From assembly GCA_029432795.1 (NCBI GenBank), contig JARNMJ010000006.1, forward strand, positions 1-64,000: 64,000 bases of DNA, in the 5' to 3' direction. Positions 58,899 through 61,993 of this stretch are shown in pieces; position 1 is the stretch's first letter; each line of letters begins with the position of its first letter. Below the pieces are notes generated by a model. That model searched no databases and had not been told where the DNA came from. It worked only from the letters and a program-made list of their open reading frames with translations. Origin of the DNA: Pontiellaceae bacterium B12219 (lineage in GTDB: Bacteria; Verrucomicrobiota; Kiritimatiellia; Kiritimatiellales; Pontiellaceae). The position numbers and the translations under genes are program-made.

Positions 58899-59818
58899 GG
58901 GTCTACCTTGTTTTTATGAATGAATTTGCGGATATAGCGTTCCATCTCTTCCGAAAATTCGGGTGGAAATGCATGGGAAAAGCGGGCCTGATCGCTCGCC
59001 GTTAAATATTTTTCCAGCGGATAACGTTGTCCAAGCAGAATGGGCTTGGGCAGTTTTTCAATAATTTCATCCAGGGTTTTTCCAAGGGTTGGAACCTGAA
59101 AACGGGCTTCGCAAAAAAGGCGGAGGATGCGGTTGAGTTCGTGAATTCTTTCGATGGGATCTTCCGGGAGGTTTTCCAGGGATTGGAGTGCAATTTCGTG
59201 GGGGAGTAAAACGATTTCAGGCTTGGGTCGTTTTCGGCGGAAAATGAAGGGGATGAGAAGCAGGGCCAGTAGAATGCCGAGTGCGGTATAGACGGTGTGC
59301 CGCGTTTTTTTCTGTTCGGGCAGTAATTCAACGGGGGCAGCGATGTCTTTAATTTCAAGGGCGTCAAATCCGTCGGGCAGGATGGATTCAACGTGAATGC
59401 GGATGGGTTCGGTTTGAACAGAATCGGCCCCGGCTATGATTTCCAGTGGTTGGAAAATACAGTCTCCGGCGGGGCCGGGATTAAGCTGCCAGACCCGGCG
59501 GTAGAGCTGTTTGCCGTTAGGCAGGCTTTGCAACGGTTCCGCGTAGCCGTCGGCCACGCGGAACGAATCGATGAAACTTCCAAGGTCTGGAACCGAAATC
59601 TCGGTGTTTGGTGGAGTGTGGACATCGAGCATCATGCGGATTTGTCCGGCGACGGGAATATTGGTTTCGCTGAGGGAGAGAATGACGGTGGCCGTACCGT
59701 GCCGGTATTGTTTTGAATAGACCGGTTCGGAAAATGCCGTGTGCTGCTTTTCGGGTTTGGGAGAACAGGCCGAAAAGAGGAGGGCCGTGATGAGGAGTAT
59801 GGGGCCGAAAGTCTTCAC
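58889..59818 (-). CDS. Lipoprotein of the MoxR/Bat operon (BatD/DUF4381-like)
   Basis: 309 residues. Lipoprotein signal ending LLFSAC, a beta-rich outer part (residues 30-165), one membrane helix (YTALGILLALLLIPFIF), and a cytosolic helical tail (RIHELNRILRLFCEARFQV). Its position between DUF58 and batA is where a DUF4381-type gene usually sits. Three dyad copies (59080, 59441, 59578) give VPTLGK, FQPLEI and VPDLGS. The start overlaps the DUF58 stop (ATGA). Confidence 0.78.
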   Translation of the reverse strand: MKTFGPILLITALLFSACSPKPEKQHTAFSEPVYSKQYRHGTATVILSLSETNIPVAGQIRMMLDVHTPPNTEISVPDLGSFIDSFRVADGYAEPLQSLPNGKQLYRRVWQLNPGPAGDCIFQPLEIIAGADSVQTEPIRIHVESILPDGFDALEIKDIAAPVELLPEQKKTRHTVYTALGILLALLLIPFIFRRKRPKPEIVLLPHEIALQSLENLPEDPIERIHELNRILRLFCEARFQVPTLGKTLDEIIEKLPKPILLGQRYPLEKYLTASDQARFSHAFPPEFSEEMERYIRKFIHKNKVDPCD

Positions 59819-60705
59819 AGCGTTTGCCTTTGTCCTCGGCTTTGGAAAAATCGGATAAGATCGGGGGTGTAGTCGCGGTCGGTGCGAACAGAAATCTGGT
59901 CGATATTCAACCGGCTGAGGGCCGCCTTCAGTTCAAGGCCGCGGGCTTTGGCGGCGGTGCTGAAGTTTTTCCGGGCAACCGCACTTGCGGTGTCGACGAG
60001 GATCTGTTCGCCGCTTTCGGCATCGGTGAGCTCAACCAGCCCGGCGTTGGGCAGCTCGAGTTCGCGCGGATCGGAGATGGTTATGGCGATCAGATCGTAG
60101 TGAATGGCGGCGAGCTTGAGCTGCTTTTCATAGCCCGAATCCAGGAAGTCGGAAATGAGAAAGGTGACGCATTTATTTTTGACCATCTTACGGAGGTAGT
60201 CGAGGGCGCACGTGATGGAGGTCCCTGTTCGTTTCGGTTGGAAGCCGAGTATTTCGCGGATGATGTGCAGGACGTGGATCTGCCCTTTGTCCGGCGGAAT
60301 GAACAGTTCGATTTCATCGGTGAAAATAATCAGCCCGACTTTATCGCTGTTTTTTATGGCGGAAAAGGCAAGCAGTCCGCAGAGCTCGGCAGCGACCTCG
60401 TTTTTCGTTTTTCCGGAAGAGCCGAATGTGCCGGAGGCGGACATATCGACGAGGAAAAAGAGGGCCTGTTCCCGTTCTTCGATAAAGCGTTTTACGAACG
60501 GTTTCCCGGTGCGGGCGGTTACATTCCAGTCGATCGTGCGGACTTCGTCGCCGGGCATATATTCGCGGACTTCATCGAATTCCATGCCGCGGCCCTTGAA
60601 AACGCTTTTATATTCGCCGCCCAATAGCTCGGTGACCACCTTACGACTTTTAATGTCGATCTGGCGGACCTTTTTGAGGAGCTCTTTATCTTTTTTAGAC
60701 GGCAT
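59815..60705 (-). CDS. DUF58 protein
   Basis: 296 residues. The DUF58 signature is clear: GRGMEFDEVREYMPGDEVRT, then IDWNVTARTGKPFVKRFIEE, then LFFLVDMSASGTFG, a VWA-like strand with a partial metal site. It is soluble and probably links the MoxR ATPase to the membrane VWA proteins. No dyad copy. Confidence 0.92.
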   Translation of the reverse strand: MPSKKDKELLKKVRQIDIKSRKVVTELLGGEYKSVFKGRGMEFDEVREYMPGDEVRTIDWNVTARTGKPFVKRFIEEREQALFFLVDMSASGTFGSSGKTKNEVAAELCGLLAFSAIKNSDKVGLIIFTDEIELFIPPDKGQIHVLHIIREILGFQPKRTGTSITCALDYLRKMVKNKCVTFLISDFLDSGYEKQLKLAAIHYDLIAITISDPRELELPNAGLVELTDAESGEQILVDTASAVARKNFSTAAKARGLELKAALSRLNIDQISVRTDRDYTPDLIRFFQSRGQRQTL

Positions 60706-60710
60706 TGGAA

Positions 60711-61000
60711 TTAAGATTTAAGATTTTAGAATGAAGAATTGCGGGCGGGGAATTCCCCGCACCCCTTATTCGAACGCGCTCGGCAGGCAGCGCGGTAGTT
60801 TGCTCCAACCGATGAGCCAAAACGCATGATTTGGTTGGCAATAGTCCGTCCAGCAATCGTGTTGGGCGGTGCATCAACGAGCTTCATGATTCTCAGAACG
60901 AATGTCTTTGTTCGTTCCTTCAGTTCATCACCTTTCATGAGACCTCCTGCTTGAAGCGTCGCAGACCCAAAATTCTTCATTCTTAAATCTGCATTCTTCA
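60711..61000. mobile_element. Small cassette with inverted ends carrying a broken four-helix-bundle gene
   Basis: The left end (60714-60740) and the inverse of the right end (60971-60990) share AGATTTAAGA and ATGAAGAATT in order. The left copy has an extra TTTTAGA between them. The cassette sits between moxR and DUF58, the only large gap of the operon. A 16-bp perfect palindrome (GCGGGGAATTCCCCGC, 60745-60760) lies inside the left end. No transposase is present, so it would be non-autonomous. Confidence 0.55.
60726..60938 (-). pseudogene. Truncated four-helix-bundle (23S rRNA intervening-sequence type) protein
   Basis: 70 codons from the ATG at 60938, which keeps a strong AGGAGGT. The sequence ELKERTKTFVLRIMKLVDAP followed by NQIMRFGSSVGANYRAACRA matches the N-terminal half of the four-helix-bundle/S23 family, normally about 115-130 residues. 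Similarity stops after ARS. The rest (NKGCGEFPARNSSF) reads through the palindrome into the cassette end. Helices three and four are missing, so it is probably non-functional. Confidence 0.75.
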
Positions 61001-61003
61001 TTA

Positions 61004-61993
61004 TTACGGCACTTCAACGGTGTCGAGAATCTGGCGGAGGATGTCTTCGGAATTTTTTTCTTCCGCAGCGGCTTCGTAGGTGAGCAGAACACGGTGGCGA
61101 AGGACATCGAGCGCGACGTCTTTTACATCCTGCGGAACCACATAGCCGCGGCCATTGAGCATGGCGCGGCCGCGTGAGGCCACGGCGAGGAAAATCGTGG
61201 CACGGGGAGAGGCGCCGTAGCGAATCATGTCGGCACAATCGACGCCATACTTCGCCGGATTGCGGGTCGCCTGAACGAGGTCGAGAATGTAGTGCTCGAT
61301 TTTTTCATCCATGAACACCTCATCGACCATTTTGCGCAACCGGTTGATATCATCGATTTCGATGACAGGCTGGATGTCGATTTTAACGTTGGTTTTTCCC
61401 ATGCGTTTGAGGATGCGGTGCTCTTCGTCTTTCGTGGGATACACGACATCGAGTTTGAACATGAAGCGGTCGACCTGAGCCTCGGGCAGATGGTAGGTCC
61501 CTTCCTGTTCGACCGGGTTCTGGGTGGCGAGCACCAGAAAGGGTTCATCGAGTTTGTAGGTTTGATCGCCAATGGAAACCTGATGTTCCTGCATGGCTTC
61601 GAGCAGGGCACTCTGTACTTTGGCGGGGGAGCGGTTGATTTCGTCGGCCAGGATGATATTGGCAAAAATCGGACCTAAGTGGGGGGTGAATTCGTTGGTC
61701 CCCGGATTATACATCATGGTGCCGAGCAGATCGCCGGGCAGGAGGTCGGGGGTGAACTGGATGCGGTTGAATCCGGCATGCAGCGTCTGGGCGAGGGTGG
61801 TGACTGCCAGCGTTTTGGCCAGTCCGGGAATGCCTTCAATCAGCACGTGGCCGTTGCAGAGCAGTGCGAGCAGCAGGGCATCGATCAGGTCTTCCTGACC
61901 GATGATCACTTTTCCGACCTCATTGCGCACCTTCTGGAGGATTTCGCTTTCGGCCTGATAGCGTTCATTCATTTTGATGATGTCTTCGTGCAT
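61004..61993 (-). CDS. MoxR-family AAA+ ATPase
   Basis: 329 residues. Walker A in the MoxR form (LIEGIPGLAKTLAVTTLA), Walker B IILADEINRSPAKVQSALLE, sensor region LATQNPVEQEGTYHLPEAQ. First gene of the roughly 9-kb unit with DUF58, the lipoprotein, batA, batB, batC, batD and batE. MoxR proteins act as chaperone-like ATPases that activate partners with VWA domains. This family of operons is linked to aerotolerance or stress in other bacteria. Confidence 0.95.
   Translation of the reverse strand: MHEDIIKMNERYQAESEILQKVRNEVGKVIIGQEDLIDALLLALLCNGHVLIEGIPGLAKTLAVTTLAQTLHAGFNRIQFTPDLLPGDLLGTMMYNPGTNEFTPHLGPIFANIILADEINRSPAKVQSALLEAMQEHQVSIGDQTYKLDEPFLVLATQNPVEQEGTYHLPEAQVDRFMFKLDVVYPTKDEEHRILKRMGKTNVKIDIQPVIEIDDINRLRKMVDEVFMDEKIEHYILDLVQATRNPAKYGVDCADMIRYGASPRATIFLAVASRGRAMLNGRGYVVPQDVKDVALDVLRHRVLLTYEAAAEEKNSEDILRQILDTVEVP

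Follow-up and report, generated by a model that had tools for sequence, protein, structure and literature searches.

In the stretch of Pontiellaceae bacterium B12219 DNA analysed here, referred to as the window (contig JARNMJ010000006.1, positions 1 to 64,000; 64,000 nt in length), part of a gene for a four-helix-bundle (4HB) protein lies between the moxR and DUF58 genes of an operon, flanked by inverted sequences. What kind of unit is this, and how did it come to lie there? The features of the locus are collected in Table 1. The initial annotation had described the N-terminal half of a gene of the 23S rRNA intervening sequence (IVS) type with a perfect ribosome-binding site, and this proved correct: the truncated gene matched TIGR02436 with 32.7 bits (cut-off 24) over positions 2-52 of the 109 in the profile, i.e. 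over its N-terminal half. The score of the half-length protein against the Pfam family 23S_rRNA_IVP (PF05635) was 19.7 bits, below the cut-off of 33.8. The intact orthologue from a congener matched the structure 2rld at 6e-22. An AF2 model of a relative from the same class (L171) had a pLDDT of 92.5, its best PDB matches in Foldseek being 2gsc (Xcc0516), 2rld, Avd (4dwl) and the ribonucleoprotein of a diversity-generating retroelement (DGR; 8ub7). The 4HB proteins were mildly basic (median pI 8.6), and the solved S23p protein is described as a homopentameric ring (PMC4990558, citing Lin et al. 2006). Since the window gene lacks its C-terminal half, it is probably dead as a source of protein, with both ends of the unit surviving.

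Table 1. Features of the moxR-DUF58 region of the window (positions are those of the window)
Feature	Position	Strand	Remarks
moxR (AAA_3 ATPase)	61004..61993	-	PF07726, 5e-63; operon gene upstream; ends in a stop codon directly against the element
Element end 1, 5' arm, heptamer array	60970..61003		Operon sense strand AATGAAG AATGCAG ATTTAAG AATGAAG AAT
Subterminal motif GTCGCAGACC	60958..60967		Kept in gene-less copies of the element
Shine-Dalgarno AGGAGG	60943..60948	-	Perfect; 4 nt before ATG; read directly
4HB gene (23S rRNA IVP/S23p/Avd-like), N-terminal 58 codons	60765..60938	-	C-terminal half deleted relative to the intact orthologues of G013, G024 and G012
Unrelated sequence read through at the end of the truncated frame	60726..60764	-	Crosses palindrome and arm; stop at 60726
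16-bp palindrome GCGGGGAATTCCCCGC	60745..60760		Perfect; subterminal piece of end 2, just inside the arm
Element end 2, 3' arm, inverted heptamer array	60709..60743		From arm alignment and intact orthologues
DUF58 gene	59815..60705	-	PF01882, 1.7e-77; downstream neighbour

When aligned, the two arms (60709-60745 and 60966-61002) were inverted with respect to each other and 81% complementary over 37 nt. Both showed a period of 7 nt, with best identities at lag 7 of 17 and 15 over 21 positions; 99% of random window segments reached 13 at most. On the operon sense strand, the common end (AGATTTAAGA...ATGAAGAATT) reads as a degenerate array of AATKHAG heptamers, one side being one unit longer. The 7-nt period, together with the recurrence elsewhere in the genome of an end with GTCGCAGACC, places the arms beyond chance. 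The inverted flanking copies seen earlier are therefore real, but they are heptamer arrays that differ by subfamily rather than one fixed terminal repeat. The 16-bp palindrome was confirmed as perfect; intact orthologues carry GCGGGGTATCCCCGC in its place. We regard it as very likely that the window copy is a small mobile cassette in a decayed state.

The moxR-DUF58 gap was compared in 15 genomes of the genus, including the source genome, with site homology taken from the similarity of the flanking proteins. In G026 the gap was empty (18 bp). G013, G024 and G012 carried the 4HB cassette intact, with the same ends as the window copy. In G000 and G009 the cassette, again with these ends, was truncated, apparently by two separate deletions; in G005 a collapsed remnant of 25 bp was found. 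The remaining genomes contained gene-less hairpins built of other heptamers, with CGTGAGG-like units in G021, G003, G017 and G027 (decayed in G016 and G018), AAGGTCG in G001 and ATACGAA in G006. The state of the site thus differs among genomes, and the fragment is not a fixed feature of this junction. Another occupied site was found at the nqrA-nqrB junction, where a one-base overlap of stop and start codons (TAATG type) is kept in 17 congeners; G013 contains 124 bp of the window-type element there, and G021 a different insert with GATTNNN heptamers. The earlier proposal that the remnant of a non-autonomous mobile unit interrupts moxR and DUF58 is supported by these comparisons and largely right, except that the cassette sits between cistrons and breaks no gene; the term non-autonomous is apt, the element encoding neither a transposase nor a reverse transcriptase.

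Further arrangements were seen at moxR-DUF58 junctions. At L033 and L042 (G013 and G012), a gene-less hairpin of the same family is stacked on one or both sides of the intact cassette, which suggests that insertions at this junction were nested or occurred repeatedly. A paralogous second moxR-DUF58 operon (L051, L055, L057, L249) harbours, at the same junction, a related cassette with AATCGGC heptamers and a 4HB protein about 67% identical, although the DUF58 proteins of the two operons share only some 49% identity. In other families of the class, the hairpins in the gap (L045, L048 and L050) are gene-less and built of units about 9-10 nt long (CACGAATGAA; CCGCAAAAGAACACAA type), possibly a long-period branch of the same element class.

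Inspection of the source genome identified eight further TIGR02436 genes with open frames, plus a decayed one. The nine loci above the cut-off, the fragment included, showed the 7-nt periodicity in both flanks (mean identity 14.9 at lag 7, 13.3 at lag 14 and about 9 at other lags), each with a heptamer of its own (TTTCAGG, GGTCGAA, GTTAATC, ATTACGA and others). Ends of the ATTCTTC type also occurred gene-less in this genome, between other genes. Dispersal was followed with a pattern that joins the end to the subterminal motif, in effect GTCGCAGACC N4 ATTCTTCATTCTNAAATCT with three mismatches allowed. It produced 51 matches in seven of 18 congeners (17, 13, 6, 5, 5, 4 and 1), and none in the other 11 or in 10 order-level relatives; the reversed pattern, used as a control, gave no matches. 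Draft or metagenome assemblies make up most of the genomes. Both checks that the initial annotation had called for thus come out in its favour: further ends exist, some with an intact gene (at the same site in the three genomes mentioned above), and the gap is empty in one congener. Those element copies that were read were mostly gene-less and inserted directly behind stop codons, in the gaps between cistrons. When 25 were cut out and aligned, they measured about 115-150 bp, nearly all had both arms, and two main types of core were recognized; one of these (L285) retains both subterminal pieces of the gene-bearing cassette and lacks the gene. The full-length element consists of two inverted terminal arrays of some 4-5 degenerate heptamers, subterminal motifs and a single 4HB gene of the S23p/Avd type. 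Mobile families that give rise to internal-deletion derivatives are built in this way.

Could the hairpins instead have arisen locally, through slippage and template switching during replication, the 4HB gene being an ordinary gene of the host operon? An excess of heptamer repeats is found in many genomes and has been put down to slippage of the polymerase (PMC4679880), and the arm sequence at one and the same site changes between congeners. Against this reading stand the presence of an end joined to a non-repeat subterminal core at 51 sites, empty and occupied versions of one site, and the covariation of heptamer and protein at unrelated sites described below. Moreover, a survey for solo hairpins in 464 kb of sequence from the genus found no inverted heptamer pair besides that of the window, a CRISPR array apart (L231:19060-19946 in G024, with the palindromic repeat GTCGCGCCCCACGCGGGGCGCGTGGATTGAAAC). 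This non-mobile reading is disfavoured, and we consider it highly improbable.

The heptamer arms are general in the genus. For 98 cassettes, the lag-7 identity averaged 14.2 on one side and 15.3 on the other, versus 9-11 at lags that are not multiples of 7; 66-72% of the flanks reached 14, a value attained by none of the shuffled flanks. The best period was 7 in 84 of the 98. Arm-to-arm complementarity had a median of 38 within a locus and 18 between loci (p=3e-32). The layout was repeated in a sample comprising the best 80 matches from a public genome collection to the motif of one 4HB subfamily, which spanned about 15 phylum-level labels: the genes ran in the direction of their operons, and the arms, which matched each other, had 4-5 degenerate units, usually of 7 nt and sometimes of 8-10 (best period 7 in 49 of 77 loci, 8 to 10 in 25). 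Some 4HB loci had periods of 8-10 or weak arms; an apparent period of 8 or 9 rather than 7 was seen around the 4HB genes at L150, L156, L192, L195, L213 and L221. On plasmids of Cyanobacteria and Riemerella, heptamers flanked all six of the 4HB loci inspected, in direct rather than inverted orientation in Pseudanabaena. The idea that each heptamer has a 4-base core and three variable bases was discarded, contiguous cores being barely above chance (30% versus 20%).

The position of the arms makes an RNA-level element worth considering. The upstream arm follows closely on the upstream stop codon, beginning 1 nt past it in the median, and the 4HB gene mostly shares its direction with both neighbours (73 of 94 and 60 of 75 loci), those with both neighbours in antisense numbering 4 and 0. 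The arms could accordingly form a stem in the operon mRNA, which RNase III would excise or which would bring the upstream stop and the downstream start together, leaving translation unharmed. In Coxiella, RNase III removes the IVS from the transcript, and heptamers lie where it cuts (PMC4990558); some of the gap RNAs fold better than their shuffled versions (z of -4.9, -2.8 and -2.3; -2.95 for the window copy). For several solo hairpins, however, the shuffled versions fold about equally well (z about -0.5 to -1). The non-Watson-Crick positions in 131 aligned arm pairs include 183 G-U and 202 A-C. An RNA stem under selection would be expected to be enriched in G-U, of which no excess is seen; the symmetry of the arms is thus better explained by recognition of the ends at the DNA level. 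An element acting through its RNA is unlikely in our view.

The 4HB protein and these ends vary together. For 161 loci with clear heptamers, the similarity of heptamer matrices at non-homologous sites climbed with 4HB protein identity, from 0.36 to 0.60 (Mantel rho 0.24, as high in none of 300 permutations). No rise was seen in controls in which the matrix columns were shuffled or one matrix was reverse-complemented; the covariation is thus strand-specific. It held between groups and inside the set from other phyla. Pairs at the same site gave values close to those at different sites when compared at equal identity (40-70% range), so the history of the site is not its cause. A strict recognition code, in which heptamer identity follows the 4HB protein, was rejected: the relationship is weak with consensus letters and becomes clear only with matrices. 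The orthologues in the genus have low dN/dS ratios (0.02-0.16 among the values listed), and most synonymous sites are close to saturation; purifying selection on the protein is strong there. As heptamer similarity persists at such near-saturated distances, it points to selection on recognition, with co-inheritance of the whole unit as part of the explanation.

The explanation we favour overall, with a probability of roughly 60%, is that of a small mobile cassette, decayed in the window, with the 4HB protein acting as the factor that recognizes its ends. This protein would be the element's own recognition or copying factor, and the strand chemistry would be supplied by the host or by other recombination or replication machinery. 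Gene-less copies may have been moved in trans or left as remnants. As to how the ends are recognized, a pentameric Avd-like 4HB ring might bind the arrays of 4-5 heptamers at both ends, as DNA, an idea we put forward tentatively and at somewhat less than even odds. Several observations speak against the cassette with its 4HB factor. It encodes no catalytic protein, so its mobility needs a partner. Target-site duplication is represented only by a candidate, the pair AAGGAATCTAATGAA / AAGGAAACCTATGAA around the nqrA-nqrB insert of G013, which agrees at 12 of 15 positions in a place where a Shine-Dalgarno sequence and a start codon are expected anyway. The strong co-orientation with the operon is not expected of a plain DNA transposon, unless inserts in the opposite direction are lost through selection on the gene. 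The loci with periods of 8-10 or weak arms also fit less well. Finally, the covariation might also arise because protein and ends are inherited together. In another reading, the Avd-like protein would pass the cassette RNA to a reverse transcriptase acting in trans. The structural kinship with Avd, including that of the DGR ribonucleoprotein, and the sense orientation within transcribed operons are consistent with such retro-mobilization. Yet the source genome, 96% complete, contains no RVT_1 protein (PF00078), and of 28 genomes of the genus only 11 have one, the 17 without it including several with 3-8 cassettes. Retro-mobilization is thus very unlikely.

To our knowledge, the S23p/IVP proteins, known for decades, have no assigned function, the 23S IVS no explained origin, and the heptamer repeats of Xanthomonas, Nostoc, Geobacter and others no owner; the cassette described here would join the three. 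With the 23S rRNA IVS of Leptospira and Coxiella, its nearest known counterpart, it shares an inverted terminal stem with a single S23p/4HB ORF inside; in Coxiella the inverted ends pair as a 28-bp stem, and three tandem heptamers (GACAGAT) adjoin the S23p ORF (PMC4990558). It differs from them in lying between the protein genes of operons (the moxR-DUF58 gap in the window) rather than in rRNA, and in having many copies, gene-less derivatives and many flavours of heptamer. Terminal inverted repeats do surround an S23p ORF whose HMM score exceeds the curated cut-off, and the locus was filed as a variant of the IVS kind, which lacks the location inside a 23S rRNA gene and has the remaining testable anatomy. 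Conversely, the 23S IVS with S23p may be a member of the class that landed in an rRNA gene. Like MITEs and the REPIN/RAYT system, the family has short dispersed copies with inverted ends, in which the gene-less outnumber the gene-bearing; in contrast to them, its ends are degenerate heptamer arrays, its partner is a non-catalytic 4HB protein instead of a transposase, and any target duplication is a candidate. With the Avd protein of DGRs it shares, on the modelled structure, the same fold (Foldseek to 4dwl and 8ub7), but the sequence identity is 13-17% and the cassette has no reverse transcriptase, template repeat or variable repeat.

Heptamer repeats have been described separately in Xanthomonas (GGGAATC) and Nostoc (GGGGAYT; both PMC4692102), in Beggiatoaceae (TAACTGA; PMC4679880), as inverted hepta- or octamer pairs called regulator binding sites in Geobacter (PMC2700814), and as hairpins in P6b of the Nostoc trnL intron, where whole hairpins are replaced at one site (PMC4476775). 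They share with the cassette short degenerate units, mostly of seven bases, often about four per array and often in inverted pairs. In searches of the open-licence literature, no paper joining such repeats to 4HB genes was found; the link is proposed here, and was tested for 4HB loci on cyanobacterial plasmids only. A wider generalization, to which we give about one chance in three, would be a pan-bacterial mobile class in which a non-catalytic pentameric 4HB protein recognizes subfamily-specific arrays of degenerate heptamers at both ends (perhaps one unit per subunit), spreads into intercistronic gaps without a transposase of its own and sheds gene-less derivatives, with a common origin for the 23S IVS and many unexplained heptamer repeats.

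The scattering of genes annotated as '23S rRNA IVP' among unrelated operons, e.g. between cas6 and cas4, is explained by such a cassette, and the neighbours of these genes are a poor guide to their function. A role as phage cargo was considered and set aside, with one relative found in viral contigs. On the Pseudanabaena plasmid pPg_01 (L283), the 4HB gene between cas6 and cas4 is preceded by about 16 AAAAGCT units and followed by AAAAGCC units, in direct orientation, an arrangement that may explain the CRISPR-linked '23S rRNA IVP' calls in the literature.
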